Made by a program: the position numbers and the translations under genes. 64,000 bases of DNA. Source: Gracilariopsis chorda. Its lineage: Eukaryota; Rhodophyta; Florideophyceae; Gracilariales; Gracilariaceae. Location of the stretch: positions 310,001 to 374,000 of the forward strand of contig NBIV01000057.1 of assembly GCA_003194525.1 (NCBI GenBank). The letters are read 5' to 3'. Below the pieces are notes generated by a model. The model was given only the letters and a program-made list of their open reading frames with translations, made no database searches and was not told where the DNA came from. This document shows, in pieces, positions 16,748-61,387 of this stretch (its first letter is position 1; each line of letters opens with the position of its first letter).

Positions 16748-17173
16748 CGTTCACCCGTTAACGCCAACGGTGTAAACAAGCGATAATTTGAGTCTTTCAA
16801 TAAACTTGTTGTTGTAAATTAATGTTTCATTTGCCCCGTGCCCCGAATGGCCAGCTTGCCAGCTCTTTCTACAATGCACCTCTTCACTGCTCCATTCTGT
16901 GCTACGCAGCCCAACGAGATCCCTGACAGTAGTACCAACAAGGGTAAGGCCATTTCAATTGTTCTTGCACTACACCGTTCAGCGTCAAGTCCTTCAAGTC
17001 TCTGTGTTGCTCTCCTATGGAAATTACAATGATGGACGTAACAAAAAAATCTTTCTTCGTTGCCTTGTAGCTCTGATATCATAGCACAATTACGGATTTA
17101 TTCAACGGTGGCATAACAATCGCAAAGTATATGAGACATAGCTGCGTTGATCCCAACCAGTTTTCATAACCGT

Positions 17174-18930: not shown

Positions 18931-19055
18931 TTATCGTTGCCCACCACCACCCGATGGCTAGTCTCTAGCAGATTTCGAGCCATCACGATCACACAAGTAG
19001 AACTGCTAGAGTCAGGTATTGCAATAAATCGTACCTAGATGAGAACAAAGCATAG

Positions 19056-19957: not shown

Positions 19958-19960
19958 AAG

Positions 19961-19973
19961 TGGTCTCCCGACC
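19961..19973 (+). promoter_or_regulatory. Primer-binding site of element A
   Basis: TGGTCTCCCGACC follows the LTR after a 3-nt AAG spacer. A TGG start matches the CCA end of a tRNA. The same spacer and TGGTCTCCCGA core occur in element B (reverse strand). It is not the initiator-Met site (TGGTATCAGAGC type). I cannot name the tRNA. Confidence 0.7.
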
Positions 19974-20072
19974 TAGCATCGGAAACGGTTAGGTTTTGTA
20001 TTACCTCTCCTCGGAGATTCACTGTCCAAACTTTTGGTTTCTTACCATTTCGTGGGAGTTTTTGGTCTACAC

Positions 20073-22187
20073 ATGTCTCGGCGACCATCCTCCGCCGAAC
20101 CCGTTGTCACGCGGAGTCGTTCCGTCAGTGACGTGGAACAGGCAGAGATCTCGAAAGTCCCCGCTGGCCACCCTCGACGTGCCACTTTTAAAGGCAAGTC
20201 GAAGGGCCAAGACTCGTCGAGAGCCCAGAAACCCCCGCCTAAGGCGTTGAAGGACGCTCCCAACTCTGGTGTCGACGCGGCTTCTGCTGATGTAGCTGCA
20301 CCCCGGAGGGGAGAACCCGATACCGACGCCCCCCCTAGTGTCCAAGCGCAGCTTGATGAGGTGCGTGAAGCACACAATACCCTCGTGGAGGAGTTTGAAG
20401 TCCTGCGTGTCAGGTTTGATACCTCTTCTATGAAGGATTTGGCTGAGGACATTCGCTTTTTAAGGGCGGATGTCAACACTGTGCTGGAATGTGTTGGTGG
20501 TCCTGCAAACTATGTTGAGAATGTGGAAACCCGATTTGATCGTGTCAGTGCCCGTCTGAGGAAGTTGGAGCAAACTATCTTGATGGATGACGACGTCCCG
20601 GGTGAGGCCGCTGCTGTCTCGCAAAAAGCGAAGCGCGAGAAGAAAGATTCTACCCGCCGCACTCGTAAGAAGCAGCCCAAGCACGATCCCGACTCGTCGG
20701 ATTCCTCCTTGTCTTCACAGGATTCTCACCATTCTGATGGTTCAGTGTCGTCGGATTCTTCGTCGGACGATGATCGTCGCCGACTCCCGTCCCATTCTAA
20801 ACGGTCTTCTTCCACCCAAGGTGTGATTCGCCCCCGGAAAAAGGGGAGGAAACACTTAGGATTGAGGGAACTCAAATGTAATAATACCCTCTACAAGAGG
20901 TTGGTATCGTACCGATATTATCGGCTTGAGGACTCCTCATTGGATCGTACACCCCGTGGTACGGGTAAGGTGAAGGACTGCATAAAGCGTATGCAGCTTT
21001 CCCTTCGTAACCAGTCCTTTTCTGGAGAGGATCCCATATTAGTGTTGGACTTCCTCGGAAGGTTCGTTTCCGAAGCTGACATACTTGGTATGAACGAAGA
21101 ACAGGCGTTTATTGCCCTACCGTATTTTCTACGTGGACTCGCCGAGGATCAATACAACTCTGTAAGATGTTCTTCCCGAGCCTCCGAAGGAGGTGTAACG
21201 TGCTGGCCGGAAGCGGTTCAGTACCTCTTGCGATCCTACGCGACGAACAACGCTATTCAAGCGGCTATTCTCGCTTTACGCGATACCCGCCAGAAATCTG
21301 GAGAGACGGAAACCGAATTCTCGGTACGCCTTAATAAGGCTTTCCACAGGTGTGGCAATGTTTATTCCTCTGGAGAGCGCTGCACCATGTACATCGATGG
21401 ATTGGATCCGGCAATCCGTACGCTGGTGGCCCGATATCGGGAGGATCGTCGTAACACCACCTACCTGGAGTTGATTCAACACGCGCAAGCGGAAGGTGAT
21501 GCACTTCGAGCTCGTATTCCTGCATCGAAGTCTCGTTCCGCCAAGGCGTTGATGATGGAAGCCAGTTCACCATCTTTATCGCTAGCAGCGAGTGGACGCC
21601 CTTCAAGAGACTACGATAACGTGTACCTCGCTCAGGCCGATGCTCAGTCTATTCCGACCACGGAACTGCCGTCCACGACGGATGCGTCCTACGACACAGC
21701 TCAGGAGAATTCCCTGCTGTATGTTGACGGACCCCGTGTTCACGGACCTCGCATTCCCTATGCGAATGGTGCCCTCCGGCAGAGTCGTCCCGGATGGAAG
21801 GACACCCGCCCAGCGGTGAGACACACGGATGCTCGTTCCGGTCAGCCGCCCCCACGCTCTGGAGTCATATGCCACATATGTTACGAACACGGCCACATTT
21901 CACCGGACTGCATCCTCACTTTGAGAGAAGTAACCCAAGTGATCAGTAACTATGAAGCCCTTACTCCAGCGGAGAAGCAGACCGTTCCGATTGCATCGTA
22001 CTTACGAGCGAAGACGGACTTCCCCCGGAATATCCCGGATACGAACCCGCGACACGCGTTGCATTCCCCTCCTGAGCAGGTCACTAACCCCCGTCTTGTT
22101 CGACGAGACACCCCCGCTAGCGCTACACTGCTAGTGGTTCAGGATTCTGAGACCCCGCCTCAGGCGGAACGGGCTCAGGAAAACTGA
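20073..22187 (+). CDS. gag: Element A Gag
   Basis: The intact 704-residue frame starts MSRRPSSAEPVVTRSRS at the first ATG after the primer-binding site. Residues about 90-180 look coiled-coil-forming. An acidic Ser-rich tract (SSDSSLSSQDSHHSDGS) follows near 215-245. The capsid-like retrotransposon gag core spans about 270-490 (LGLRELKCN through CTMYIDGLDPAIRTLV). A CCHC zinc knuckle lies at residues 600-613 (CHICYEHGHISPDC). Gag would form the cytoplasmic particle that packages the element RNA. Homologous fragments occur in B (minus strand, 39.3-41 kb) and D (42.3 kb). Confidence 0.9.
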   Translation: MSRRPSSAEPVVTRSRSVSDVEQAEISKVPAGHPRRATFKGKSKGQDSSRAQKPPPKALKDAPNSGVDAASADVAAPRRGEPDTDAPPSVQAQLDEVREAHNTLVEEFEVLRVRFDTSSMKDLAEDIRFLRADVNTVLECVGGPANYVENVETRFDRVSARLRKLEQTILMDDDVPGEAAAVSQKAKREKKDSTRRTRKKQPKHDPDSSDSSLSSQDSHHSDGSVSSDSSSDDDRRRLPSHSKRSSSTQGVIRPRKKGRKHLGLRELKCNNTLYKRLVSYRYYRLEDSSLDRTPRGTGKVKDCIKRMQLSLRNQSFSGEDPILVLDFLGRFVSEADILGMNEEQAFIALPYFLRGLAEDQYNSVRCSSRASEGGVTCWPEAVQYLLRSYATNNAIQAAILALRDTRQKSGETETEFSVRLNKAFHRCGNVYSSGERCTMYIDGLDPAIRTLVARYREDRRNTTYLELIQHAQAEGDALRARIPASKSRSAKALMMEASSPSLSLAASGRPSRDYDNVYLAQADAQSIPTTELPSTTDASYDTAQENSLLYVDGPRVHGPRIPYANGALRQSRPGWKDTRPAVRHTDARSGQPPPRSGVICHICYEHGHISPDCILTLREVTQVISNYEALTPAEKQTVPIASYLRAKTDFPRNIPDTNPRHALHSPPEQVTNPRLVRRDTPASATLLVVQDSETPPQAERAQEN

Positions 22188-22225
22188 TATCGGGAGTCTC
22201 CCCTACGGGAGAGGCGCCCTCAGAG

Positions 22226-23159
22226 TTGAGGTTGAAGGCTCCCGAGGGGTCACTGCCTCGCTCCACGGTCAAAATCCTTACTAGGAAACAGGCCGTCTCA
22301 GACGTGAACTCTGAACACTTTAGTGTTCTGCGTCGACCGTGGAAACGTGTTCGAAACAACCGGTTCCCGGACAGAGTTTTGGTAATGGCCAAGAGAAACT
22401 ACAAGGTATATGCTGACCTTGGCCTTTCCACCCAGTTTATGGTGCGAGTTCTCACTGTTTTGGACACAGGTGCAGGCCCGAATTTCATCGTTGAGTCGCT
22501 CCCGGCACCGTCGTTGCAGTCTCAGATCCGCCATGGCGTGATACCGGATGTCGCGGATGCTACTGATAACGTTATCAACGGTTGGGACAATCGACCTGGT
22601 CGTGTGCCTTGGCTCCTTTCTTGTGAAACTCAACTTTAATGTTTGTCGGAAACTTGCCACCCCTTTGATCTTGGGATGCGACTTCTGTGACAGATTCGTC
22701 GATGCCATCAGGCCCCGTCTAAGACGTGTGGAAATGGAAGACGGCTCCTCCGTTCCGATCGTATGTCTTCCTCTACGACGTGCCTCGAAGAAGCACGTTC
22801 CATTACCTGCTGCGCAGGAACCCCCACCGGCTTCCCGGGACTCTACAAAGCTCCGCGTTGCCGCGTCTGTCCAACTCCCACCGGAATCCCAAGTTTGGGT
22901 ACGAGTCACTTCCTGTCAACACGGTTTACGAGTAATTCAACCCCTTTCATCCTTATATGATAGGTATCAACTCGCCGTGGCGAATGGAGTAGCTCAAATT
23001 GAGCCCGATAAACCGTTCAACGTGCTGGTCGCCAATCTAGGCTCTACGCCCCAGTCATTGGTGAAAAAACCAAGTCATTGGTTCGGTAATGCCCCACCCC
23101 ACTGCGATGGTTCCCACGAGAATGACCGCCGCCGATGTCCTCGGCCTCGTTCACTCTAA
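22226..23159 (+). pseudogene. pol: Element A protease region, frameshifted
   Basis: The aspartic protease motif LDTGAGPNFIVE is read in one frame (22,226-22,639, active-site Asp codon at 22,463). The C-terminal protease motif LILGCDFCDRF is in the next frame (22,548-23,159), and reverse transcriptase is in the third. At least two indels have therefore broken the region. Gag ends in a different frame from protease, so an original -1 or +1 recoding event is possible, but the damage hides it. Confidence 0.75.
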
Positions 23160-24420
23160 GAAGGGGGAGGACACCGCCGTCCAAATGACGAAATGCTCGG
23201 ATGCTAAGCCGGTTCCAACGAGTTACGACCAGATTGATCCCGTGAAAGAACTCGAGGAACTTGACCTCGGTCATGTGCCGGAATCGCACCGTGAACGTCT
23301 CCATGAGATGCTACGGAATTTCACCACGATGTGGGATGGCTCCCTAGAGGAGATTACTACAACGGAGCACCGGATTGACTTGCTACCTGATACCAGGCCG
23401 ATCGCTCAGCACCCCTATAGGGCAGGCCCTAAAGCTCGAGAAGAGGAAGAATTCCAAGTGGAAAAGATGCTCCGAGCTGGAGTAATAGAACCGGCTCAGT
23501 CGCCGTGGGCATCCCCAGTGGTACTGGCTCCGAAATCGGATGGATCCTGGCGCTTTTGCATCGACTACCGTCGACTGAACGCCGTAACCATCAAGGATGT
23601 GTACCCGATCCCACGAATGGATGAGTACATCGATTCACTCGGAAATGCTACCGTTTTCACGGCTCTAGACGCCAATTGGGGATACTGGCAGGTGCCCGTC
23701 AGGGAACAGGACCGCGACAAGACTGCTTTTGTCTGCCACTCCGGACTCTATAGTTTCAAACAGATGCCTTTTGGTTTTACCAATGCTCCCGCTACTTTCC
23801 AGCGTGCTATCGACATACTACTGGCTCGCTTCAAATGGCGTACATGCCTCGTCTACCTGGACGATATCATAGTATTCTCAGATAATCTGGATGACCACCT
23901 CACACACGTGAGAGATATCATGACCACGCTACGTGAGGCTGGAGTTACTCTCAAGTTGAGGAAGTGTGAGTTCTTTACAGATGCAGTGAAGTATCTGGGC
24001 CACATAATCCGCCCTGGGCATGTGATGATCGAGGAAGCTCGAGTTCAGTCGCTCCGTCAAGCGAAGGAACCCGCCACTCAAACGGAACTACGCTCCTTTC
24101 TAGGATTAGTCAACGTCTATCGACGGTTTATCCCGAATTGTGCGGATATCTCAGCACCCTTGAACGCGCTCTTGCGGAAAGGCCAACCACCGAAATTGGA
24201 ACCCTTTATGTCCGTCGAGACGAAGGCGTTTAACTCCCTCAAGGAGGCTGTAACATCAGCACCAATCTTATCGTTACCGAAACCCGGACTACCTTTTACC
24301 GTAGACACGGATGCTAGTGACTACGAATTAGGTTGCGCTCTCTTTTAGACAACTCCCGAAGGAGAACGAACCCTTATTGGGTACTGGTCACGCTCACTGA
24401 ATGTTCACGAGCGGAATTAA
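23089..24420 (+). pseudogene. pol: Element A reverse transcriptase and start of RNase H, interrupted by stops
   Basis: Reverse transcriptase blocks are intact in one frame: SPWASPVVLAPKSDGSWRFC, then the YLDD catalytic box at 23,854-23,865, then KYLGHIIRPG. RNase H begins with DTDASDYELGCALF and is then cut by TAG at 24,346-24,348 and TAA at 24,418-24,420. Both stops are in the frame that continues into the integrase ORF, so they are simple nonsense substitutions rather than indels. Only readthrough of both would give a full pol. Confidence 0.9.
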
Positions 24421-27400
24421 TCCGTCTCGGAGAAAGAGTGTCTTGCAGTTGTGTGGGCACTCTCCACTCTCCGCCCCTATGTTATGGGTGTGCACTTCAC
24501 CGTTTACACGGATCACTCGTCATTACGATGGCTCATGACAGTCTCTGAACCGTCAGGCCGCCTAATGCGTTGGAGGCTCCGCCTTGCGGAATTCGACTTC
24601 GAGGTGATCTACAAGAAGGGCACAAAGAACGCTCAGGCGGACGCGCTGTCGCGTTTACCCACGGATGGTGAAACTCTACCCGCTGGGAACGAGGACATTC
24701 CTTGCTTCGTCGTCGACGGTCGAGAACCGGAGGCCCCGGACCGTGAACCGGATAACTCGGAGGAAGAACCGGAATCGGATGATGAACTGGACGCACTACT
24801 CGTCTCGGACGATGCTCAGAAACCCCCACCGGGTAATTTCGTGCCAATACCCCCGGAGGAGATGGTCAGAGAACAACAAGGTGATCCCTTCTGTACTCAG
24901 ATTCGCGCCCGACGTAATGGCGGTGCGCAACTCCCTTTCGAGGTGAATGATGTTGGATACCTCGTCAGGACGGTTCAAACAACCCCACAGGTAGTGGTAC
25001 CGCATACTCTACAATCTAGAGTGTTGCACTTGTCGCACTATGCGAAACTTGGTGCACACGCCGGTGGACGGAAACTTTACCTCACGTTGCGACGGAGTTA
25101 CTATTGGCCAGCCACGGCTGTGGACTGCTACGCGACTGTGCAGTCATGCACGGAGTGTGCCAAAAACCGGGTCAAACTCCGGAAGCACTCAACGAAGTTG
25201 AAGTTATTTCCAGCACGGGCCCCTCTCGAGTTTATCGCAATTGACCTCTTGGGACCGCTGCTCACCACAAAGCGTGGACATAAGTTTTTACTCGTTATCA
25301 CGGATCGTTTCTCCAAGTTGGTTCGCACCGTACCTTTACGGAAGATATCCGCTTTCGCGGTGGCGCAAGCCTTATTCACCCATTGGGTATTTGTCTACGG
25401 ACCACCGGTTAACATTCTATCCGATAACGGAAAGCAATTCGCATCGCGATTCTTTGAGGACGTGTGTCGGATTCTCGATATCAAGAATCTGTTCACAACG
25501 ACCTACCACCCCCAGTGTAATGGGCAAGTCGAGCGGTTTAACCGAACGCTGTTAGCCTCTCTCCGTTCTTACGTTGCTGATCACCCCAAAAAATGGGACC
25601 TGTACACTGACGCCTTGACGTTTGCGTATAACACACAGGTACACCGTACAACTGGTTTCACTCCATTTGAATTGGTACTTTCGCGTCATCCGCCCGCCGT
25701 AGCGTTGGAACCCCAGCCTACGCTGGCAAACTTCCCTTTCGTGAAGGATTATCGCCAACGATGGAAAGCGTGGCTTACGAAGTTAATCCCGGTCGCCCGG
25801 AGCTCCATGGCACGAGCACAGGCCGCGTACAAGCGTGATTTTGACTCTCGTGTACGAGGTACAGCACCGCCAATTACGGAGGGTGACTACGTCTTCGTCC
25901 GTAAGGAGCACTGGAACCCTGATAAGGAGAAACGGCATAAGCTCTCACCCGTAGTGGACAGTCCCTACAAGGTCATATCAGTGGATAACGATACCTTAGT
26001 GGTGGAAATGAACGTAGCTCAGGAGCGGATTTCCCGCGATCGCGTTGTTATGGCACCGCCACCCTCCGTAGAGGTTGCTTACCAAGATGAGAACCAACAC
26101 ACCCCAGTGGAACAACCCACATCTGTGGTTAACAGGCCTTCTGTGTTGCCAGACCCTTCAAGGGGACTCTCAGATATACCGTCCTTATCGGACGCAGGCC
26201 CGAATGGCCTTTCTTCTCTAACGCCACTGCGCGGTGTCTATCCCCGCAGTTTGGGCGCTTCTACCACTTCTACCACTCCCCATGCCGCTCCATCTAAGGA
26301 GGGGGAGGAGAACCCTAACTCTCGGCGAGAGACTGAAACCACTTCGTCGCGTCATGACAACCGTGCTGCACGGACCTCCAGAAACATCGAAAAGGATAAT
26401 AGTGGACCGAGAATTCCGTCTACTGAGGTGCCATCTTCGCATTTGCGCGCTTCAGCTACCGCTGAACCCTCTCGAGGAATTTCTACCGCATCTGCGCCAG
26501 ATCGCACTCCCCACCGGGATTCTAGTCGTCAAAATGCACCACGCAATTGGAAGTCTCTCGCCAAATTGAAATCGTCGCAGGAAACTAATCGCGTTCGCGA
26601 TACTGAACCGGCTGTGCCGTCGAGCGTTGATCCGCATTCCGTGGGTCACGGTTCGTCAACAACAGCTACGCTGGATAATGCAGAGCAGGCCCTCGCAGGA
26701 TCCTCTGAGCCGACTACACCGGACGTGGTAACTCCTACTGGAAGGCAGAACACACCGGCCAGGTCGGGCAAGCACACCGTACAGGACGGAAGGAAAACGA
26801 CCAGCAAGCTGTATTCTGGTTTAGGACCATCGCGCAGTCGCGAACTCACTCCGAGTGTCTCGGTTGATCCCGACAGTGTCGCCGAAGTCGCACCGGTCAC
26901 TCCGGAAGGAAAGCACGTCAAAGACGGAAATACTTCGTCGCCGAAGCGAGACAACACACCGGCAGCACCGTTGCAACCGCCCTCACGTGAGGAGGCGGAA
27001 CACAACACGGCGCGGACAACCCTCGACCATCCGTTGCAAACGGCACGTGACCCCGACACCGTATGGACGGCAAAGGCACCAATTACCACCCAAGGCGAGT
27101 CGACGCGTACTGTACGACGCACCGTGGTGCAACCGACTTCGTTGTCTGAAGCACCCCCGTCAAGACGGATATCTCCACATAAACCTGTGGTTCGCGACCC
27201 AGATGCTCATCGTTCAGATGCGTTAGAAGCCCCTCAAAGGGTGTCGTCAATAGAAGCCACCTCAAGCAGTGAAGAAACCACGAAGCGGGAGATTTTAACC
27301 CACAGCAAGGGTCCCGATACGCACCATCAAGTGGTCGACGCAACCGGCCGTGCCGAGGATCTCCAGGCCCGTGAAGCGGATGAACCTACCCGGAAACCGG

Positions 27401-27726
27401 TTAATGGCCCCTCTAAGGGCATGGAAAGGCAGTACCAAGCCATGTCCCTTCCGGGGAAGACTGTCCAACACCCACCAGTGGTGGTAGAGCCTGCCGTGCA
27501 GGACGCGATAATGCGAACATGGCGAGGCCGGGAAGTCTACAAAAAGGAGTTTGTTGTTGACCACATTGTGGAACATTCTTACCATCCAGATGGTTACATC
27601 CAGTACCGCGTACGCTGGTACGGTTTCGGGCCCAAATATGATTCGGATGAGCCGATAGAGCACCTCCCACGTCGAAAGTGGTGTCATATCATCGCAGAAC
27701 GCGAACGGGAATCCCGGCATCGGTGA
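24421..27726 (+). CDS. pol: Element A RNase H end, integrase, long linker and chromodomain
   Basis: After the second RNase H stop the frame stays open for about 1100 codons. It holds the rest of RNase H (YTDHSSLRWLM), the integrase zinc domain (HLSHYAKLGAH with CTEC), and the integrase core: D in AIDLLGPL, D in LSDNGKQF, E in NGQVERFNRTL. Next comes a GPY-type region (SPVVDSPYKVI). A low-complexity linker of about 500 residues (Ser/Thr/Pro/Arg-rich) follows, then a C-terminal chromodomain (EFVVDHIVEHSYHPDGYIQY and onward). Chromodomains of chromoviruses direct insertion by binding modified histones. Here the usual aromatic in the DTWEP-like motif is replaced (DSDEP). There is no obvious start codon because the true protein begins upstream. 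Confidence 0.9.
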   Translation, partial: SVSEKECLAVVWALSTLRPYVMGVHFTVYTDHSSLRWLMTVSEPSGRLMRWRLRLAEFDFEVIYKKGTKNAQADALSRLPTDGETLPAGNEDIPCFVVDGREPEAPDREPDNSEEEPESDDELDALLVSDDAQKPPPGNFVPIPPEEMVREQQGDPFCTQIRARRNGGAQLPFEVNDVGYLVRTVQTTPQVVVPHTLQSRVLHLSHYAKLGAHAGGRKLYLTLRRSYYWPATAVDCYATVQSCTECAKNRVKLRKHSTKLKLFPARAPLEFIAIDLLGPLLTTKRGHKFLLVITDRFSKLVRTVPLRKISAFAVAQALFTHWVFVYGPPVNILSDNGKQFASRFFEDVCRILDIKNLFTTTYHPQCNGQVERFNRTLLASLRSYVADHPKKWDLYTDALTFAYNTQVHRTTGFTPFELVLSRHPPAVALEPQPTLANFPFVKDYRQRWKAWLTKLIPVARSSMARAQAAYKRDFDSRVRGTAPPITEGDYVFVRKEHWNPDKEKRHKLSPVVDSPYKVISVDNDTLVVEMNVAQERISRDRVVMAPPPSVEVAYQDENQHTPVEQPTSVVNRPSVLPDPSRGLSDIPSLSDAGPNGLSSLTPLRGVYPRSLGASTTSTTPHAAPSKEGEENPNSRRETETTSSRHDNRAARTSRNIEKDNSGPRIPSTEVPSSHLRASATAEPSRGISTASAPDRTPHRDSSRQNAPRNWKSLAKLKSSQETNRVRDTEPAVPSSVDPHSVGHGSSTTATLDNAEQALAGSSEPTTPDVVTPTGRQNTPARSGKHTVQDGRKTTSKLYSGLGPSRSRELTPSVSVDPDSVAEVAPVTPEGKHVKDGNTSSPKRDNTPAAPLQPPSREEAEHNTARTTLDHPLQTARDPDTVWTAKAPITTQGESTRTVRRTVVQPTSLSEAPPSRRISPHKPVVRDPDAHRSDALEAPQRVSSIEATSSSEETTKREILTHSKGPDTHHQVVDATGRAEDLQAREADEPTRKPVNGPSKGMERQYQAMSLPGKTVQHPPVVVEPAVQDAIMRTWRGREVYKKEFVVDHIVEHSYHPDGYIQYRVRWYGFGPKYDSDEPIEHLPRRKWCHIIAERERESRHR

Positions 27727-27991
27727 TAAACGCCCAAGTGGGATAAGCAAGCCACGGCGGTGGAAGGAAGGAAATGAAGGATCGAGTTGTGGTGTGGAAA
27801 GGAGAGGAAAGAAGAAGGGCGCAAAAGCGTGTGTGTTGTTGGAAGAACTTCGTAAGAGTTGCTCGCAGATTCCCTGTTCACAGCTAGGTGCTCGTTACCC
27901 AGGGTGGAATGGAGAACCGGCGAGCCGGACTTACATTTAAGGACCTTGCCCGGTGCTTCCGTTGCCATCGTGGATGTCGTATTCGTACCTC

Positions 27992-28003
27992 AGGAGGGGA
28001 ATG
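27992..28003 (+). promoter_or_regulatory. Polypurine tract of element A
   Basis: AGGAGGGGAATG directly abuts the 3' LTR (TGAAGTGCAA). It is the expected primer site for plus-strand DNA synthesis. The segment between the pol stop and this tract (27,727-27,990) holds no ORF. Confidence 0.8.
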
Positions 28004-28905
28004 TGAAGTGCAATCCTCAAGGAGGAAGACTGAGCGATGCCCTGTGGATTTGGTGTTTTTGCCGCTTTCGCGTGTTTATGATTACTACCGCTATTAGCGG
28101 GTGTCTCAGCCCTCAGCGGATCCGCACTGTGCGCCACGTGCACACCTGTGCATGCGCCATGTGCCGCCCAAGACGTGAGTGGACCACGTGTGACACAGAT
28201 AGTCAAGAGGAGGTTGGCACCACGATGTGGATATTTTGTTAACTTATATTTATTATTTATTATTTATCTACGCTACAGTAGGGAGATTACTACACTATAT
28301 AGTGGCTCGGCGACCTCGCCCTGACACTGAGTAAACTTCCCCAACCAGGGGTTCTTGGCTCTAAGTCTTTTCCGCTTTCGCGAGTCTTCTACGCTCCTCG
28401 GAGGTAAAGCCGCGTTACTAACGGTAGACCTATCCACCCTGCGTCACTAGGAGTATCACCGCCTTGGGCACTTGTCACTTAATTCACCACCGCCGTGTTC
28501 TCGCCCCTGTATAGGGTTCCTCTGTACCTTTTTCCGTGGTCCCGTTGGCCCACACCCCCGTCGCCCCCAATCAGGCATCCCCCGTATTTCCCTTACCCCA
28601 CTCTCGTGGTTTCTACCGTTTTGTGAGGTTGTTCGTCACCGCTGACGCGTGTCTCTCGTGCCGGTATCCCGTGACGTCTTCCCCCACTTACGTGGACTCG
28701 TACTCCTTGGAAGGGCTGTTTTCCCATTCGTGGTGATCCTAATCCTACCGTTTCAACTCTCCCCGCTTGGCGTGAGGGTGAGCCTCGGCTTTACAACCCG
28801 ACTTCGTCGTGTTCATCCGGAGAGGCTCCGTTCGCTGTGTTACCCTCCAGAGGGGAAGATCCGAACGTCTTCGTGTGTTGTCCCGCTTGCGGGTATTGCA
28901 CTACA
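28004..28905 (+). repeat. Element A 3' LTR
   Basis: It has the same length as the 5' copy with nine substitutions. Eight lie in the first 230 bases. Seven of the nine read C-to-T or G-to-A from the 5' to the 3' copy. Confidence 0.95.
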
Positions 28906-33182: not shown

Positions 33183-33896
33183 AGTGGTGCAATACCTTGA
33201 AAAAGGTAAACACAAACGAGGGTGTTCAACATCCTTCTCTATAGGGTAGCAACAGTAAACAGAGCCAGTTGAGGTTTGCGCACTCGTCTGGCGTCACTCC
33301 GACGCTCACCATCACGACTGGCGTCAGGTGTATGGTATATATTGGATATGGGCATGAGAAAGCGAAAGAAATCGAAAAATAGCACAGATAAACACGGGAT
33401 TCTTACCTGTATATGGTAAAATATATAAGTACTAAGAACACGCAATCCAGATAGAGATGACGACGCAGTGTGCGGTTCAAGATGCCACGAGGTGGAATAA
33501 CTTGTCCCATACCAGGCTTTGGCTCTCCAATGAAGCTTACCAAGTACCAGTGGTTCCTGGGTCAGAGCCGAACACTCGTTTGTTGTGTTTACCTTCCCGC
33601 GACGTGACGCGGCTTCACACCAAATTATTAGTGGTGCAGGCCCACTTTCAAGCTGTCATTATTAGAATTGTTAATTATAAACAGAACTATTTCTAAACGT
33701 TAGGTGCAAACACTTCGATACGTGTGCTAAGCGTGCCAAAGTGGCAAGTGAACTAATAACATTAAAAAATGTTCAATTAACCTCGATAGCCAGTAATTGT
33801 TCTCTTATTCATATATCGAGCTAATATGCCGCGGTGCGGAACTCATTTACATGAGTCGCATCATGCGAGAGCCTCTCACGAACGCGTTGAACTACA
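33183..33896 (-). repeat. Element B 3' LTR
   Basis: It aligns with 41,466-42,179 at an almost constant offset of 8283 bases. The right end is ACTACA as in the other copy. The left end reads AGTGGTGCAA where the intact copy has TGTGGTGCAG, so the terminal T has mutated. Confidence 0.8.
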
Positions 33897-33915
33897 TAAC
33901 CCCCACCTAAGCCCC
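33897..33915 (-). promoter_or_regulatory. Polypurine tract of element B
   Basis: Read on minus the bases next to the LTR are GGGGCTTAGGTGGGGGTTA, a purine-rich tract at the position expected for plus-strand priming. Confidence 0.65.
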
Positions 33916-34014: not shown

Positions 34015-35874
34015 ATGAAACAGACTCCAAAAAACTCGCCCAACCATCCCCAGGGTGTCTCCTCCAACGTTCCAAACGTTACAGTAGCTCCCAAAAACTT
34101 TGTTCAACAGCCTGCGACGCAGTAGAATCGTCCGCAGTTCGAACGCAGTTTCAACACAGCTCCAATCACACAACTGGGTCCTTCTCAACCTTCAGCTCCG
34201 CTGCAACTCTATGAGCATACCCCGTAGGTCTATCAAACTGCCATGCAGCCTCAACAGATGAACCCACCGATGTGGCAATGGCCTCAGCAACAGATAACTC
34301 TAGCAAATCTCCCTCTGGAACTGTGACCTTCATAGGAAGATCTAGAAGCGGTCAATCCGTGACACAACGTAACTCCGTACCTACGGGCTCCATGGTTCCA
34401 CCCTCACGTGTTAGGCCTCAAGATGATCATCAAATCGTATGCGGATGGATTGGGCCGGTTCCCGGGTCATTTTCATGTCTATATGATATCCCCCTTTGAC
34501 TGGAGACATCGAATTCTTCCTATTTCTCTGGCGATTATCCACTATAATGGCGAAAGTGACGCGGATGCGTGGACTGCCCTCATCAAGGTGCTGCACCAGC
34601 CTTTGTACCGAACTTATTATGATCTTCCTATTCCGACAAACTTCCATTTCGACCTGGCCTTCTACCGAACATTCAGGGAGATCCAATATCGAGAGAACCT
34701 CGCGCGTCCGGCGAACACCAATGAACAGGGCCAGGATATACCCGTTCATAACAGTTTATTGTGTTGGACGCGTCCATTATTGCATGCCCATTTCCGTTAC
34801 CTCAAACGTGAATCAAGGTTCTCTTATCTTCGCAGAATGATCCGCTTCGAATGAAGAAGCCGTTCCCGTTGGGGATATCTTATACCTTATCAGAACACTG
34901 AAGCGAATAGAATTCGCCCTCGCCACATGCGTGGGAGGTATGTTCCGATTCCATTAGTGTGGGCTTCCACTGAAGTGTGCCGTGGGTGCTATATAGAGCT
35001 CCCCCTTCGCACCACCTATGTGGGTAGCTGGCTTCTAAGCAACCCGTTTACGATATGGTGTTCCGTTATGAACATGTAGTGGGCTGTGCGAACAGCTGTA
35101 TATCTCTTCCACGAGGTTTACGACCAATATCGCCTTTCGTACATCTTACTGACCCTTCATTGTCGTATCCGGTCCCTGGAATTTTTAATCATGCTCGGTG
35201 GCAATGAAAACTTCTCAGAGCTGATGTGTCTCCTCGATTTTATCGAAAATACCGATTGCAATGCGGTGCCAGTGGCGTGGTCATCTCACCACGATGAGTT
35301 GGACACAAGTGACCGATCACCAGGGCGGAGGACTCCCCTCGCTGGTGATTTCATCTATTACGATCCGTGGACGCGGGTGGCAATTACTCGAGACGAGGCC
35401 TTCATACTGCGAGACGCCGAGAGAAATATCCCAGAGAGACACCCAACTGGGTTCGTCCTCACCAAAGAGTCCGTCCACGCGGAGGATGCCCAATATCCAA
35501 TGTCAGATGATGTTCATGATGAGGATTACCGGAATGCGCCTGTTGCGACGAAGGATCTAGCCAACCAGGGAGCGGTGCCATCGATACACGTAACTTCGAT
35601 TCCGACGTCTGTTACCCCTCCGACTTCGGCTACTCCTCTGGCTGCGCCGGTTCCTTTTCCCTCCATATCAGTGGCATCAGTCTCATCAGTGATGAATGAC
35701 GCCCAGCGTGCCGCTGTGATATCTCAGTTCCTTTGGGAGGCTGGACTGTCCGACGTAGCGTCGAGTGACATCTTGCAGATGCATGGTGCTCTCCGCGCTC
35801 CGGTGGCTAACATAATAGTGAGGCTCAACCGGACTCCAGTGGTACATCCTTCTGAGGACCTAGAGAGTTGTTGA
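34015..35874 (+). pseudogene. Antisense ORF (aORF) of element B, unknown conserved protein
   Basis: One frame runs for 620 codons from the ATG at 34,015 to the stop at 35,872-35,874. It is broken only by about seven in-frame stops (such as TAG 34,123 and TAG 35,074) and no frameshift. It lies opposite to gag-pol, starts 118 bases inside the 3' LTR and ends about 320 bases from the chromodomain. It aligns collinearly with the aORF of element C: APWFHP, ADGxGxxPG, DWRHRI, LPIPTNFHFDLAFYRT, IPYQN, GCYIELP, YDQYRLS, AGDFIYYDPW, then an acidic Pro/Ser/Thr linker and a small C-terminal block (FLWEAGLSD). The first 130 codons are Gln/Pro-rich. I recognise no domain. Element-encoded structural or silencing-suppressor roles are speculation. 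Confidence 0.75.
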
Positions 35875-48304: not shown

Positions 48305-51081
48305 CTAAGGAACTCCACGGCGACCACCACGCACGCGATCGTGAATGGTAGTTTGAGTCCTGGCCAACTGGCACGGAACAGGAGGAAGGCCACCATCCCG
48401 AATGGACACCGAACGGACCGTCTCGGGCTCCAAGAAGACCAAACAGGGTGCACGGGGCACGGGAGCCTGTGGAAACCGCTCATCCCAATTGGTTGCAGCA
48501 GCTGCAATAGCAAGTGCTATAGAGACACCGCTCTGACCAGCATCAACAGAAGCGCCACCGGCACCGCTCGGACCAGCACCTGAAAGGGGATCACCGGAAA
48601 ACATTTCGGCTGCGTTGGCTCCAGAAGCGTTGTAGAGATTTGTAATGGCCTCCTGGGCAAAACGCTCGGCTTCAGCCCAGACAGTGAGCTCATCGATGGT
48701 GCGCGGGTCCCCAGTCGGAGAATCTTGCGTCTTGGGCGGTTGATGACGCGCGATTGCGGTAGGAAAGGTATCCCGGGCGTCCATGGCGGTCTCGGGATCA
48801 AACGCCTCTGCCGTCATGAGGTAACGGCCATAGATCTCCAAACTTCGGAAGGTATGAGTACGACTATTCCCCATGAGATCCATCTGGGACTTCGGGGTAC
48901 AATGATGGGTCTGTCCACTATGGTGCACGCGAGGAATCCAGTTACAGGCGAAAAGAAGGGCATCACGAAGTGAGTCAAAAGCGGGCTCCCCAACTATCAC
49001 ACACACCGTAAAAAAAGAGGCGAGCGCTTCCTAGATCTTGGGTTCCATATCGAGTGGGTCGGTCTGAGACCCTGCCTCAACACGATAGCGAACTGGTGCG
49101 GGTGTGTAAGCAGGCGCAGGAGCCGGAACCGAATGGAACCCGGTCAGAGCCCATGCCGAGACCGAAGGCAGAAGCAAAGGAGGTGCAGTTGACTGACCAC
49201 TCGGGGTACGACCAAGAACGACGGTTGGCGTAGCATCTGCAAAGTCAGTGCTCATATAGGAGAATGGCCTTTGTGAAAGTGAGTTAATGTGAAGGAACCA
49301 GGGGGTCTGAGATGACAGAGGTCGGATCATTGCTGGCTCGCCTATCACCTCGCTTAGCTTGGTTTCAGTGGAAGAGATACCAGGGGACCTACCGACTTCC
49401 AAGGTACGTGATCTCAGGTCTACTTATGTAGTAATTTTAATTAATGTTTTAGGATAGTTCTCGGAGGTCAGAGCGCCTCGTCGACCATATAGGTTGGCTA
49501 GAGTGCCGTCGACCTCCGAAGAGTAAAGAAAAGCACCACCGCAGTCTTCTTGCTATCGTATGCAGCTATTACACGCCAAAGGCCTCCAAACCATCACTCT
49601 AATTCTTCCTACCTGTAGGGACTTGAGCTAGCGCCCACCAATTGCCCCTCGCCGCCAGTTGGTGCCCGCGTTACCAGAAGACCCAGTGGAATGTCACCCC
49701 AATGGCGGTCTCTCTGCCGCTACTACCCCTCATTAGACTACTAATCCAGTTCATCAAAGGCAGTAGTACTCTACTAAAGCTCAAGTACCCGCCCGGGAAG
49801 TAATCCGAAACCTTAACCTCTTTCCAGAACTGGCGGTGATCAGTTGGTAACAATCGACGGGTAACTGGGCCGTTAATACTGTGAGCGGGAATCGTGGCGA
49901 ATGAATCCGCGTCGAATTAGTGCCACAGGAAAGCAGTAGAATAAGACCAATTGGTCTCCAAAGAGTAGCGGAGAAGCATTTCAGCGTTTCGCGGCCGGAA
50001 CTTTGACCCTCGGAGGATGTTCTGAACTCCGATCTGGCGGATGATGTCCACCAATGCCACTGGTAACGAAAAAAAAACGACCATAGTGCGGATAATCATC
50101 GAATGTATACAACCAAGCGTCTAGATCACGGGTAAATATGGTCACCGCATCCAATGCGGTCTGGATAAACGCCAAAAAAGCGAGCAGGGCCCACTCCACG
50201 TAGACTATCTGGAAAACCTGATCAGAAAAAGGTCTCTGCTTAAGGACCTCGGACTTGTGATATTCTAGAACGGGCGGAGTTGGGACCTCAAGGTTGCAGG
50301 TTACCTAATAGTTCATCCATCTCTGACAGCTCGGCAGGTATACTCCCACGCAATTACTAGCGGCCAGGTCATGGAACTCCACATTGTGTCAAACCTAGTA
50401 GTACCCAAGGCACGACCAGATTCGGGCTTCAGTCACAGCATTATCAACCCACTTGGCACGCTTGAGCCAGTAAAGGCGGTGGGAATGAGGCTCGAACACA
50501 ATCAGCTGAAGCAAATTGTACCGACCGGCCGGGGGATACTACGGGCCATCCTGCATCCGAGGCAGCAGGCGCCGCAAGCGAGACTGATACTCAACCTCTT
50601 TTGGGTACCGTAAGTACGGCATGTCACAAATACCGAATGTTCGAACGAGGGCATAACCGCGCGGGAAAGGGGAATTTGCCTAGCGTGCTATCCATGAATC
50701 TTCATCAGTCCGCTTGGGATTCCGTACGTTCAGCTCTGCAAGGTTTTGCACGGACGGATTGCGGGAGACCCGCACGGCATGGACATAGTTGCCGGACAGC
50801 CTCTGCTTTTCCAAAGACTGACATTAGTGGCTCTCGTTCCTAACGGGCGGGAGTAAATACTAGCTGGTTGCGGTGATCAAGCTGCTGGCCCGGTAGCGGG
50901 AGGGTGCGCCAAACTGTAGGTGGACTTGTTGACGGGCCGCACGGGCACGCATAGGATCTATTGGTGACGGAATGGTTTCGGAACCCACCAAAGACGGGAG
51001 CGGTATCGAAAACAGAAGACCGGGCGGTACTGAGAAGGGAGGTGAAAGAGAAGGTGCATCCGTCATGGTGGCGGTAATCAT
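48305..51081 (-). pseudogene. Antisense ORF region of element D, decayed
   Basis: On the strand opposite to pol, pieces match the aORFs of B and C in order. GYY and HNVEF at about 50,410, then GVYLP, NLEVPTPPVLEY (about 50,300) and VEWALLAFLAFIQTALDAV (50,199) correspond in C to GYFIPYQNVEIE, GRYVALP, IELPPVLRY and TEWAARTAAYILNEAYDQY. A long frame from 49,402 to 48,305, broken by one stop, holds the C-terminal half, including ITNLYNASGANAAEMFSGD against IARFLRGAGLSAAEVSGD in C. The middle is about 1 kb longer than in C, so it has an insertion or a different layout. Similarity is lower than between B and C. Confidence 0.5.
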
Positions 51082-56298: not shown

Positions 56299-57103
56299 TG
56301 TGGTGCAATGCCCCAAAGGGGAAAAACACCGAAAGACGTTCGGGATCTTCCTCTCACGAGGTGAACCCAGTTGGGTAGAGCCCTCCCAGATGTGTCACGG
56401 CGAAGCCGGTTTGTAAGACCAGGGATACCTGTCGCGACTCGCGCAGGGAGGTGAAGACGAAGAATCGGTATCCGCGTGAGCGGGGTGTGATCCTCAGTAG
56501 AGGTATGTTTCCACGTAATTGAGGGTGTGTGAGCGGATGCGCACACGAGGGCCGCGGATAGCGGGAGGTGCTACCCTAAAAAGGAGAAAAAGAAAGGCGA
56601 AGTGAGTCGCGAGAGCAACGGGGACGAACGGCGATGCCGGTAACAATATCCCTATACAGGGCGAAACACCAATGCAATTGGAACAATTATACTCCCAGTG
56701 ATGGGTCCCTTTAGATGTGCAAGGGGGTTAGATGTCCCGTGGTTTACGGCGTTTCCCTCCAAGGAGGAGTAGAGTACGCGCGCAAGCGGCAACAACTAGA
56801 GCAAATTCCCCAGGTTCGGGGTCCCTTCTTGGGGAAGGTTTACTGGTGCGACGGCAGTGCGCCGTCGCACTAAGTACTAGCTTCCCAGAAATGGGTGTGA
56901 AAATAATAAATAATATTAACTAAAATACTCCACATTTCGTGGCAACATCCACTACTGTGGCCAACCGCCAATTGACCCAAAACCGTGTCCCACGTGTCCA
57001 TATCCACCATAGTGGGGCGTAGTTCATATACACACTACACAACCGATAATATCGGGAAAGCGTTCAAGTACCCAGAATCCCTGCCTGAGGGCGTTGCACT
57101 TCA
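56299..57103 (-). repeat. Element C 3' LTR
   Basis: The 805-bp LTR read on minus starts TGAAGTGCAA, identical to the start of element A's LTR, and ends TTGCACCACA. It holds many GC-rich mini-hairpins (CCCCAAAGGGG at 56,311). Its partner is outside the window. Confidence 0.75.
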
Positions 57104-57117
57104 TATCCCCCCCTAAG
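57104..57117 (-). promoter_or_regulatory. Polypurine tract of element C
   Basis: Read on minus it is CTTAGGGGGGGATA, directly abutting the LTR. Confidence 0.75.
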
Positions 57118-57158: not shown

Positions 57159-58946
57159 ATGGGTGATAAAAGCGCGTGCTCTGTCCCCGGTTCTCCGGTA
57201 AATCCCTCTGCACCAGAGTCATCAAGCACACAAACGACAACAACAGCCACCCTCGACAAGGGAGAAATGAACGACGACAACAACATCAATAACCAAAGCC
57301 AACCTCCGAGACTTCTCAGGCGATACACCACCGGTTTCCGGTCAGTTCCCCTGCCTCAGGGCGATCGAAATCCGGTACAACCGGGGAATATGGCTGCTGC
57401 AGCCGACCATCCCTTCGCACTACCACCTTCGGTGATGTCCTCCGGAACCACTCCGGTGTCCAACTAGCCAACCTACAACACCCTGGTGGGGCTCAACCCG
57501 ATGAATCAGAATCACGCGTCGCGCCTGCGCCTTGCCCCGTGGTTTCACCCGGTCGCTGTCCTCAATGAGGGATTGGTCACCGCTTTTGCGGATGGCTCAG
57601 GCACCCTTCCGGGGGATCTGCCCAGAGCAGTCACCACGTCGTAGGATTGGCGTCACCGGATTGCGATTCCGCGTCACCACCTCCGAAGAAATTTGGGCGA
57701 GACCGTCGCTGCAGCGCAGACCGCGTTGACGCGCATGGCGTACCAACGGCAGAGCCGGGCTCCATTCGATGTACCGGTCCCACCGGAGTTTGGCTTCGAC
57801 GTTAGCTATTTCCGCACTCGCGGGGAGATTGGGTACGGCGAGAACCTGTTCCGCCTCGAGACCCTCGCTTGGAGGAATTTTCTCGCAGCGCGGCAAGAAG
57901 CTTTTTGCTGGGAGCGACCGATTATTCGGGCGGAGTTCAGGTACCTTCCCCGGCAATACCGGTCCAACTTTCTCCAAAACTTCATCCGCTACGAGCGGCG
58001 TTGGCGATCCCGATTCGGGTATTTTATCCCGTATCAGAACGTGGAGATAGAGCGGATTGCGCCGCCTCACCGACTAGGTCGGTATGTAGCACTCCCCTAG
58101 TGGTGGCGCTTCCATGAAGCCTGCTGGGGGTGCTACATAGAACTCCCGCCGGTACTTAGGTACCTCGGTTCGCTGCTCATGCAGGATCCCCGGTCGGGGT
58201 TGTGGTCCGTAGTGGTTACGGAGTGGGCGGCCCGCACTGCGGCTTATATCCTCAACGAGGCGTACGACCAGTATCGTCTCTGGTTCCTTCAACCGCGTGT
58301 GCGGGCAGCGATCCCAAACCTGGATCTTCGCATCCCCCTTGGGGGCCAGGCCAACAATGAAGAGGTCCTCCAATTACTTGGGTACATCGACAGCGTTAGC
58401 TGGAGTGAGGTCCCGCTGGAGCAAAGCGGTCGTCTGGATGGCGGTAGCGGTAACACCGGTGGTCCGGGACTCGGTAGAAACACCGCCCTTGCGGGGGATT
58501 TTATCTACTTCGACCCCTGGGAGTTCCGGGAAATTTCCTCCGAGGAGGCGCGCGAGCTTCGCGATACGCCCCGGCATGTGCCGGAAGACCACCCGGTGGG
58601 GTACGTCGATTCTGACGACTACTACCGCGCATACGGCGGGGATGACCCAATGGTGGATAACGAACCGGAAGAACCCGGGGAGATGGACGTAGAGGAGACC
58701 GGCGCTAGCGCGGAAGCTTTCCAAGAGGGGGTGTCTCCGGCCGAGCCGGCTGCTGACCCTTCGGCGGCAAGTGCCGGACTTTCTATCCCCAGCGGGGTGA
58801 CGGCGAATGAAAACGAAATCATCGCACGTTTCCTCCGGGGTGCCGGTCTTAGCGCTGCCGAGGTATCGGGGGATGTCACCACCATGGCGGACGAGTTGGC
58901 CTACCGCCTTGCTGGGGGTTACGCCCCGGACGATGGGGGTGAGTGA
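57159..58946 (+). pseudogene. Antisense ORF (aORF) of element C, best-preserved copy
   Basis: A single frame of 596 codons runs from ATG 57,159 to the stop at 58,944-58,946. Only three internal stops (all TAG, at 57,465, about 57,642 and about 58,098) interrupt it and there is no frameshift. It starts 55 bases inside the 3' LTR and ends 191 bases from the pol stop, on the opposite strand. The N-terminal 100 residues are Ser/Thr/Asn-rich. The core has LAPWFHP, DWRHRI, FDVPVPPEFGFDVSYFRT, RYERRWRSRFGYFIPYQN, GCYIELP, AYDQYRLWFL, AGDFIYFDPW and EARELRD. An acidic linker (EPEEPGEMDVEETGAS) leads to a last helical block (IIARFLRGAGLSAAEVSGD). Trp and Tyr are frequent. I do not recognise it. It is homologous to the aORFs of B and D. 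Confidence 0.8.
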
Positions 58947-59137
58947 AATCTCTAGTCCAGTTTCCTGGTTCTTCTTTCCCTGGCTATGCCAGTTAGTGTA
59001 GTGTAGTATTGTGGGGAGCTAGCTGCTCCCTTGAATAAACATTCCCGTTTAGAACGGTGCTTCTCGGTTGAGTTCCCCGTCTTCGACGGACCTTGTCTTG
59101 TTATCCTTTCCTTTCGCTCTCCGCTCGCGCGGCAACG

Positions 59138-61387
59138 TTACCCAACTTGGGCATTAACCAGGGTGGCTGGGGCTGCAGTTCCCGTTTGACGGTGGTATCG
59201 CAGGACCTGCGACCGTGGGAGGTGTTCAATTGGCTCCCACGTATCCCCACTGGGGTCGTACCCGTACCAGCGGACGTGGTATTGTAGAATACCATCCTGG
59301 TCCCAGGTGTGTCCGACAAGTCGGTCTACTACGAACTCTCGTTCGTAGACCTGCCGGCCGTGCCGGGTGGTGGTTGTACTTCCTTGCGGGGGCTGCCCGC
59401 TGTGCGGTATAATGTCCCTTAGCAGGGTGTTCGACGATAACTCCGGCGTTGCCTTGCGCTGTGATAGCGGCCGCTGCTCATGCGGGAAGATATCCCTCAA
59501 GAGGGTGTGTGGTGCCACGGTTTTCACCAGCAAGTCATTCCCCATTGGGGTAGGTTCATTTCCGCTTTCGCGGTATTGCGGGCGAACCGCCAGTCGGCGG
59601 GGGACTTGGGCTCCGCCTTCGCGGTTGAGCTCACGAATCGCGAGTTTGCGGGAAGATGACCGCTCCTGCGGGATCGGCATTTCCACAATCCCCTGGGGGG
59701 TCCCGTGCGACACGGTGATTGGGTGGCAAACCGCCTCCCTGCCAGGCGCACGAGCGCTCTGCACCATACGTTCCGGCGATGCCGTGGTGTCTCCGGCTAC
59801 TGACGGGTTGCCTGGGGCTAACTCCGGTACACCGGTATTTTGGTCAAAATTCCCCTTTGGGGGGTGCCGGGCAGGTGCCGATGATACCCTTTTCAGGGAA
59901 ATTGCCGCTAAGCGCGGTGCACCATCTCCATGAGGAGGAGCAGCGTCCGGTACGACCGGTTTCGAGCGTGCGATGGCGCGCGTTTTTCCCGAGTTCCTCG
60001 GTTCGTCGCCGCAGCGATGCGGGGGTTGGCGCAAATTATTCCCCGTAGCGGGGGCTTCGATTCCGTCAACGACGGGAGGCATTTCCGGTGCTTGCGAGCC
60101 AGGGCTTAAAGCTTCAACTGCGGCTTGGCTGCCTTTTTCCCCAAGAGGGGTATGGGTATTTCCCTGTGAGGCCGGCGTATCTGGGCGCCCCTTCTCCGCA
60201 AGGCGCGGGTCTGATCGACCTGATTGAACCGCTTCCGCGGGGACTTCAGCCAACGGCGGCTTCGAGGCATCGCCCTGCTCAGGGGATTGGGGGCAATCGT
60301 CACCATACTCCCTTATCGGGGATCCTTCCCTGACAGGGGTGTGCGGTAGTTGCGCTTCAACTTCCCGTGTAGCACGGTATGTTTTCCGCGTTTGTGACGA
60401 TGCCTCAGGGGATGGATTGGGCGATTGCCTTTCCGCTGCTGCGGTATTGGAGTGAGGCTTCTCGTTTTCCCGTGACAAACGGTGTATTTGCCGCTTTTGC
60501 GGGGCCTGCGCGTCTGGTTCCTGTTGCGCAGCACTGCCCGGGAACGGGGGATTAGTGTCGCGTGACATACTCCGTGCTCCACGGTCAGTGTTCCGTATGT
60601 TACGGTGTGTTTCCCGTTGCGACGGCGATATCGTTCCTCGAAAACGAGTGTTCTCCTCCCCCTCCTTAGACGGAGCGGCGGGATAAGGGATAACATTCCC
60701 CGCCTGGCGGGTATAGATGCGCGCCAGTGGGGCAGACGTGGTAGGGGCGGGCGCTGAGGGGCCCGAATTACCGGGCTGAGCCGGTGAGTCCGACAGAGTC
60801 GGTAGGTCTGAGAGTCCCCGGCTGGGGTTTGGTAGTACCGTAGGTCTAGTACTCCCGGATGGTTCCGGTGTTGCAGAGTCCGTAGAAACGGGGTTGCCTG
60901 GATCCAGGACTACCTCTGACGAGGGAGGAGGGGCAAGGACAACACGATCACGGGAAATCCGTTCGTGCGTGTCGCCCATCTCTACCACGACAGTGTCGGT
61001 GTTAACAGAGATGACCTTGAAGGGTCCATCCGCCACAGGCGAGAGTTTTTGACGCTTCTCCCGTTCCGGGTTGTAGTACTCCTTCCTGATGAAGACGTAG
61101 TCATTTGCCTGAGTCGGGGGGGTCTTTCCTCGCAAGTGAGCGTCAAAATCCCGCTTGTAAGCGGCTTGGGCCCGTGCCATAGACTTCCGCGCAGCGGGGA
61201 CCAGCTTGGAAAGCCATTGCTTCCATTGCTGCCGGTAGATACCCACAGATGGGAAATTGTCCAAGGTAGCTTGGGGTTCCAGCGCCACAGGCGGGGGTGT
61301 TCTAGATAGAACCAACTCGAATGGCGAAACTCCGGTAGTCCGGTGTACCTGCGTATTGTACGCGTAGGTTACCGTATCAGCGTACAT
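59138..61387 (-). CDS. pol: Element C pol C-terminus: integrase end, long linker, chromodomain
   Basis: The 749-codon frame starts inside the integrase (YADTVTYAYNTQVHRTTGVS), passes the GPY-like region (SPVADGPFKVISV), then a Pro/Arg/Ser-rich linker of about 480 residues. It ends in a full chromodomain (EFVVDRLVGHTWDQDGILQY, then YDPSGDTWEPIEHLP), which keeps the aromatic DTWEP motif lost in A and B. The true protein begins upstream, so there is no real start codon. The linker DNA is packed with small hairpins. Confidence 0.85.
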   Translation of the reverse strand: MYADTVTYAYNTQVHRTTGVSPFELVLSRTPPPVALEPQATLDNFPSVGIYRQQWKQWLSKLVPAARKSMARAQAAYKRDFDAHLRGKTPPTQANDYVFIRKEYYNPEREKRQKLSPVADGPFKVISVNTDTVVVEMGDTHERISRDRVVLAPPPSSEVVLDPGNPVSTDSATPEPSGSTRPTVLPNPSRGLSDLPTLSDSPAQPGNSGPSAPAPTTSAPLARIYTRQAGNVIPYPAAPSKEGEENTRFRGTISPSQRETHRNIRNTDRGARSMSRDTNPPFPGSAAQQEPDAQAPQKRQIHRLSRENEKPHSNTAAAERQSPNPSPEASSQTRKTYRATREVEAQLPHTPVREGSPIREYGDDCPQSPEQGDASKPPLAEVPAEAVQSGRSDPRLAEKGRPDTPASQGNTHTPLGEKGSQAAVEALSPGSQAPEMPPVVDGIEAPATGNNLRQPPHRCGDEPRNSGKTRAIARSKPVVPDAAPPHGDGAPRLAAISLKRVSSAPARHPPKGNFDQNTGVPELAPGNPSVAGDTTASPERMVQSARAPGREAVCHPITVSHGTPQGIVEMPIPQERSSSRKLAIRELNREGGAQVPRRLAVRPQYRESGNEPTPMGNDLLVKTVAPHTLLRDIFPHEQRPLSQRKATPELSSNTLLRDIIPHSGQPPQGSTTTTRHGRQVYEREFVVDRLVGHTWDQDGILQYHVRWYGYDPSGDTWEPIEHLPRSQVLRYHRQTGTAAPATLVNAQVG
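59380..60720. repeat. Comb of short GC-rich hairpins in the pol linker
   Basis: Stems of 4-5 bp with loops of 1-5 nt recur every 20-26 bases. Examples are CCCCATTGGGG (59,540), CCGCTTTCGCGG (59,562), CCGCCAGTCGGCGG (59,587) and CCGCCTTCGCGG (59,613). Farther on come CCGTGCTCCACGG (60,572), CCGTATGTTACGG (60,593), CCGTTGCGACGG (60,614) and CTCGAAAACGAG (60,637). Sequences differ while the stem-loop form repeats. Confidence 0.7.

Follow-up and report, generated by a model that had tools for sequence, protein, structure and literature searches.

Antisense accessory genes have previously been described in retroelements of plants, in one of a fungus and in deltaretroviruses. Retand elements, Ty3/gypsy retrotransposons of plants, carry TRP28 ORFs that lie in antisense orientation in the interval from pol to the 3' LTR; most recent copies keep these ORFs, and their function is reported as unknown (PMC11963269). 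Further antisense ORFs are named for Grande, RIRE2 (aORF-3R, rice), PvRetro13 and the fungal element Boty (PMC7264820). GENE23 of maize Grande is reported to be transcribed from its own upstream promoter and to have a nuclear product (PMC7264820), and Boty, a fungal Ty3/gypsy element, carries the antisense gene brtn (PMC7264820, PMC8365987). In HTLV-1, the antisense gene HBZ codes for a nuclear protein (PMC11963269) and has an antisense promoter in the 3' LTR (PMC7264820). Other accessory proteins, with ParB-like and methyltransferase domains, are reported for green and red algal transposons (PMC12477816). For red algae, we found no earlier report of an antisense gene of this kind in a search that covered mainly the open literature.

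Here, we analysed a window of 64,000 nucleotides from the red alga Gracilariopsis chorda, which contains the retrotransposons A, B, C and D, and searched the 91.3-Mb assembly of this alga for related copies. The original prediction, that B, C and D each carry an ORF (aORF) antisense to gag-pol between pol and the 3' LTR, was confirmed, and the three aORFs are homologous. The red alga is thus a further case of an antisense accessory gene. Antisense ORFs had been noted beforehand for the plant Tat/Ogre lineage; they are not confined to plants, as the fungal Boty shows (PMC7264820, PMC8365987).

The G. chorda elements resemble Retand in that a protein ORF occupies the interval from pol to the 3' LTR in the orientation opposite to gag-pol. 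However, Retand elements are described as non-chromoviruses of flowering plants with an interval of 2.9-6.6 kb and a TRP28 domain (PMC11963269), whereas the G. chorda elements possess a chromodomain, the interval is approximately 2.0 kb in C, and there is no match to Transposase_28: PF04195 matched none of the 13 members of our B/C-type protein alignment A1 and none of the D-type proteins P0010-P0012 at an E-value of 0.1 (a genome search with PF04195 was empty, and its control was equally silent). Due to the presence of a chromodomain at the C-terminal end of pol in C, in other families and in two D-type copies, the elements would be classed as chromodomain-bearing Ty3/gypsy elements; this classification uses the chromodomain itself, and in the brown alga Ectocarpus, Gypsy elements that possess a chromodomain have been reported outside the chromovirus clade (PMC12477816).

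The likeness to Grande GENE23 and RIRE2 aORF-3R lies in position and orientation. GENE23 and HBZ may be likened to the aORF in position and in its presumed expression, and the aORF is not homologous to them as far as they were compared. HBZ is a bZIP protein, whereas no bZIP or other Pfam domain was found in the aORF proteins. Similarly, Pfam searches with the 13 A1 members and P0010-P0012 gave no ParB-like or methyltransferase domain. The brtn gene, which was reportedly described by Zhao in 2011 for Boty/BcGypsy1 of Botrytis, is likened to the aORF by description only: it is also an antisense gene in a non-plant Ty3/gypsy element, but a fungal one.

Results

The antisense ORF of element C

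The following features were assigned to element C (positions in the window):

56299..57103, minus strand: 3' LTR of element C, end taken from LTR matches
57104..57117, minus strand: polypurine-tract-like stretch adjoining the 3' LTR, 42-55 bp before the aORF start codon
57159..58946, plus strand: aORF of element C, 595 codons, antisense to gag-pol
59034..59039, plus strand: AATAAA, candidate poly(A) signal of an antisense transcript, beginning 88 bases past the aORF stop
59138..61387, minus strand: C-terminal part of pol with the chromodomain near its end, convergent with the aORF

The aORFs of B and C had been described as single frames of about 600 codons with the same order of motifs. The motif order is indeed common to both and each lies in one frame (619 and 595 codons, respectively), but the frames are not open, as they are interrupted by seven internal stops in B and three in C (codons 103, 162 and 314). 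The aORF of C had also been placed with its start 55 bases inside the 3' LTR. The distance from the LTR edge is correct, but it extends to the internal side: position 57103 is the stopping point of many LTR matches and the ATG at 57159 is located 55 bases further inward. A start inside the LTR was therefore rejected for C, whose aORF belongs to the internal region, beside the polypurine tract. The distance between LTR edge and ATG is 56-58 bases across 27 intact C copies. The LTR start at 56299 is less sure, since it was set by a match edge in the locus L076 and a TG at this position. In the loci L041 (27-120) and L046 (11-120), the letters show an open aORF frame that continues through the polypurine tract towards the LTR, and the protein of this family may start inside the LTR.

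As predicted, aORF and pol are arranged tail-to-tail, with 191 bp between their stops in C; the chromodomain match in the pol of C has an E-value of 2e-10. LTR pairs on contigs C101 and C326 have a spacing of approximately 9.06 kb, which, together with an LTR of approximately 805 bp, gives a C-type element of approximately 9.9 kb.

The AATAAA downstream of the aORF is found at the same offset in 26 of the 27 intact C copies. Among ten loci of different families, five have an A[AT]TAAA within 200 nt past the aORF stop, a number reached by none of 2000 mononucleotide shuffles; L041 and L046 among these five are sisters, and the stop used for L048 is not its true one. No A[AT]TAAA was found within the 200 nt tested in the other five loci. 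Short palindromes, which had seemed dense in pol and aORF of C, were not clearly enriched over 60 dinucleotide and 60 codon shuffles (pol: 28 versus 16 +- 5 and 18 +- 5; aORF: 20 versus 15 +- 4 and 15 +- 5), and the LTR alone stands out among the 12 stretches counted (9 versus 3 and 4).

Elements B and D and copies across the genome

The corresponding features of elements B and D are:

33184..33900, minus strand: 3' LTR of element B as aligned, 76% identical to its 5' LTR at 41467-42183
34015..35874, plus strand: aORF of element B, one frame, 619 codons, 7 internal stops
48305..51081, minus strand: aORF of element D, a decayed, remote D-type member, homology 50953-48326
49254..49779, unstranded: dispersed repeat of approximately 526 bp, inserted in the aORF of D

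Element D had been predicted to match at lower similarity, which holds true, with D itself being in pieces. The full-length D-type protein P0011 aligns to the minus strand of D at 50953-50627, 50814-50053, 50075-49782 and 49267-48326, and plain BLAST matches it to the aORF of C with an E-value of 3e-8 and to that of B with 8e-6. In a profile comparison with the 13-member alignment A1, P0010 was matched with an E-value of 2.5e-9 over 205 columns and P0012 with 4.3e-9, while the B/C-type profile by itself recovered only about 90 residues of D in the window, at approximately 1e-6. Judged by these similarities, the aORFs of D, B and C are homologous, with the D-type proteins as remote homologs. 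The repeat inserted in D was also seen at 23 other places with 77-81% identity, among 40 scored matches.

Across the genome, the matched part was stop-free in 58 of the 74 best-scoring C-type copies, in accordance with the view that the aORF is conserved beyond chance. Similarly, 52 of 68 scored copies nearer to P0006 have no stop in the matched part, which mostly covers about 400 residues, and six of eight D-type rows spanning residue 1 to 768 or 769 are stop-free; all of these lists consist of best-scoring candidates and are hence tilted to intact copies.

Linkage to pol and co-inheritance

RT and IN are encoded on the other strand than the aORF in all ten copies from different families that were counted (two of them close sisters, and L045 outside this count). 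The chromodomain end of pol is found directly behind the aORF, in convergent orientation, at 8 of 11 loci; for the other three (L045, L047 and L048) only 205-464 bp downstream were read. The two D-type copies read outside the window and three A-type copies also have the aORF antisense opposite pol; in the D-type copies, the RT sequences are 50% (419 residues) and 44% (90 residues) identical to that of A, the chromodomain ends 41-42%. Within the window, the RT match of D itself is 30% and its chromodomain match is weak (5e-4).

For 12 families, the identity of the aORF core (mean 0.46) tracks that of a 177-residue integrase piece (mean 0.64), with a Mantel r of 0.85 that was reached in 0 of 5000 permutations; F38 and F9 in this comparison are close sisters and the aORF row of A was taken from its relative L062. 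The clades {F50, F17, F122} and {B, F38, F9} are supported in both the aORF and the integrase tree, whereas {A, C, F42, F30} is supported in the aORF tree only and left without resolution by the integrase tree. These results show that the aORF is inherited together with pol and fills the interval between pol and the 3' LTR in antisense. They also support that the aORF is old and was already carried by the ancestor that these lineages share. The original prediction went further and held that the ancestor probably needed the gene; carriage and co-inheritance are upheld, while the need is weakened by an aORF-less form, represented by element A, that has moved.

Selection on the aORF

Selection was assessed as pN/pS in three family pairs, for which Nei-Gojobori proportions were calculated in each of the six frames from identical codon alignments. 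Instead of a ratio near 1, which had been named as evidence against a coding role, we obtained 0.26, 0.45 and 0.41 in the aORF frame, the lowest of the six frames; that this frame is stop-free is partly by choice, as the loci had been picked as open or as best protein matches. RT and IN gave 0.19-0.33 for the same pairs, and the constraint on the aORF is thus about equal to that on pol in one family pair and less in two. The other five frames contain 12-47 stop columns each and have pN/pS values of 0.35-2.13. The lowest among them is the mirror frame with coinciding third positions (0.35-0.60, but 33-47 stops), which also looks constrained, as expected from the codon structure. Conservation that follows an overlapping sense frame, the other objection raised beforehand, was not seen: no sense frame explains the pattern. 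The closest pair, L041/L046, has a dN of 0.07 and a dS of 0.31; close pairs were relied on, since among 45 between-family pairs synonymous distances were mostly saturated and three were infinite.

We also compared copies within the C type. From 38 loci, two duplicates (L009 and L012) were removed and nine (L001, L003, L004, L006, L008, L023, L032, L033 and L038) were omitted for stops, frameshift or length, leaving 27. Columns polymorphic in at least two copies fall on codon positions 1/2/3 as 11/6/27, whereas singletons are distributed as 49/58/69. As shared polymorphisms are mostly at third positions and private ones more even, this suggests that selection acts on the aORF protein during multiplication of the element, whereas individual copies are later left to drift. 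The replacement rate within C is biased downward by the choice of copies, which were taken for their protein score or because they were intact, and the between-family pairs are less affected. D-type copies compared with L069 have an excess of third-position differences in six of six comparisons, with 65/47/155 for D of the window. Taken together, the aORF codes for a protein and is under purifying selection.

The aORF protein

The aORF proteins have approximately 570-770 residues. Their N-terminus is rich in Pro and Ser and poorly conserved; a conserved core, measuring 324-330 residues from one chosen motif to another, is present in all eight B/C-type proteins measured, and all eight end in an acidic tail, which in C contains 8 Arg/Lys versus 33 Asp/Glu. 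P0006, P0011 and P0012 end in basic stretches, of which those of P0006 and P0012 look, by eye, like nuclear localisation signals.

The protein had been said to match no recognised family, and this is still the case. Pfam gave no domain above the cut-off for the 13 A1 members (one DUF6220 match at 0.095, below it) or for P0010-P0012 (one match at 0.058). With three proteins each, there was no significant match in NCBIfam or in PHROGs, where one match to a family of unknown function had an E-value of 0.077. Among PDB sequences, P0001 had two chance-level matches (0.63 and 0.92) and the profile none, and among viral contigs five pattern matches contained no relative. On the basis of these sequence comparisons, we regard the aORF protein as a new family at a position where antisense genes are already known.

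Element A and the loss of the aORF

Element A lacks the aORF:

19055..28905, plus strand: element A, aORF deleted, LTRs 19055-19957 and 28003-28905 as aligned
27810..27818, unstranded: junction of the aORF deletion, approximately 9 bp common to both sides

The integrase piece of A is 79% identical to that of C, its two LTRs show 9 differences over 903 sites, and from the letters the element is flanked by a target duplication of 5 bp (CATAG). Only approximately 276 bp separate the pol stop from the 3' LTR. That A never had an aORF was rejected, as relatives that are 94-96% identical on both sides of the junction carry one; the 9 bp shared at the junction fit a short-homology deletion. In a search across the junction, 40 places were scored, eight of which (A included) span it completely, while the other 32 matches end at query 504-519, which is 27803-27818. 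Four of these 32 were read: three carry an aORF in the gap and one, L061, has only an N-terminal stub, which is a second deletion, different from that of A.

The deleted form was found at six sites, A and five further copies, whose 150-base 3' flanks are mutually unrelated, and it has therefore most likely inserted repeatedly, i.e. has moved. Due to this movement to several sites, we conclude that the aORF is dispensable in cis. The RT-IN frame of A contains stops at codons 420 and 444, and A may therefore have been moved by the proteins of other copies. Three of the eight junction copies are located on contig C3 (96701, 105643 and 114454), 8.8-8.9 kb apart and in the same orientation, which is possibly a tandem array of copies sharing LTRs; the 3' end of one of the three was read.

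Discussion

We propose, with about even confidence, that the aORF is an accessory gene that is expressed antisense from the 3' LTR and that its product is a probable trans-acting regulator of the element family. The sense genomic RNA does not contain the aORF in readable form, so its translation calls for an antisense message. This mRNA would be driven by a promoter within the 3' LTR or at its edge, as hinted at by the start codon of C, which lies 55 bp from that edge; the message would start near the polypurine tract and terminate at a poly(A) signal that precedes the end of pol or falls within it. It would be translated into a protein of approximately 570-770 residues with a flexible Pro/Ser-rich N-terminus, followed by a single conserved core (about 330 residues) and by an acidic C-terminal tail. 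By its architecture and by analogy, this protein could act in trans on transcription, silencing or integration of the element family. A regulator would be favoured over a structural part by the acidic tail and by the lack of a relative among particle proteins or enzymes.

More tentatively, one might speculate that such a trans regulator, for example for anti-silencing or copy-number control, arose once in red-algal chromodomain retrotransposons, that about a dozen families and a deeply split second lineage keep the gene, and that aORF-less freeloaders like A spread on the protein of their relatives; we hold this fuller scenario to be possible but clearly less secure than the regulatory role as such. 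The loss of the gene in mobile copies fits a trans-acting, a self-limiting or a merely dispensable product.

A self-limiting product, i.e. an antisense protein that restricts the transposition of its own element or of competitors so that its loss is no handicap, agrees with the six unrelated sites of the A form and with the separate deletion in L061. However, purifying selection of the order seen for pol implies that a lineage gains something from retaining the gene, and most places related to A (32 of 40) do not cross its junction, three of the four that were read still having the aORF and one its stub. We therefore consider copy-number control by self-restriction unlikely.

The position between pol and the 3' LTR would also suit a structural or envelope-like component of the particle, located in the place of env on the other strand. 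The usual membrane threshold for the mean hydrophobicity of a 19-residue stretch is 1.6, and two of eight proteins, L039 and L040, have a stretch above it (Kyte-Doolittle means of 1.65 and 1.85), but no membrane-like stretch was found in the other six, whose maxima are 0.94-1.29. When compared with the large first ORF of A (gag region), the aORF protein showed no similarity, and the deletion form still moved, so that a particle component appears quite improbable.

Slightly less probable again is a captured host gene that retains a host-like function, its antisense position being incidental. A large conserved core without viral relatives could well be foreign, but among the matches listed the protein relatives, at least ten, carry no Pfam domain, and the four named ones are hypothetical proteins of Gracilariaceae, from G. 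chorda and Gracilaria domingensis. Among the proteins used here, P0003 corresponds to BWQ96_03215 and P0007 to BWQ96_10156, both of G. chorda, and P0003 is 100% identical over residues 1-491 to contig C30 of the assembly. Moreover, two deeply split lineages hold the aORF at the same place. Antisense transcripts of LTR elements have been discussed as possible regulators (PMC7264820), but the idea that the RNA alone matters, through dsRNA-mediated control with the ORF as a by-product, is highly improbable and already contradicted by the selection pattern, since one frame shows the strongest codon-level constraint and is open in 58 of the 74 copies scored.

The regulatory role in trans thus remains our preferred reading. 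A further case in a red alga, with many intact young copies, two deep lineages and a natural deletion form, suggests that antisense genes repeatedly come to occupy the interval from pol to the 3' LTR, and the purpose of the gene can be tested by comparing gene-bearing and gene-less copies within one genome.

Further observations

The locus L076 (contig C99:30400-34300) is a tandem array with a 1.87-kb unit, in which approximately 800 bp of C-family LTR alternate with approximately 1.07 kb without a match in the window; the units are 99.6% identical, and contig C997 has LTR matches at a similar spacing. Within the window, two inverted repeat pairs of about 390-400 bp with 90-93% identity are located at 12395-13160 and 15026-16576. 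In addition, an ORF at 17147-18406 contains a DDE_Tnp_4 transposase domain (3e-15), and an ORF at 1481-2950 contains an LPMO_10 domain (lytic polysaccharide monooxygenase, 4e-8).
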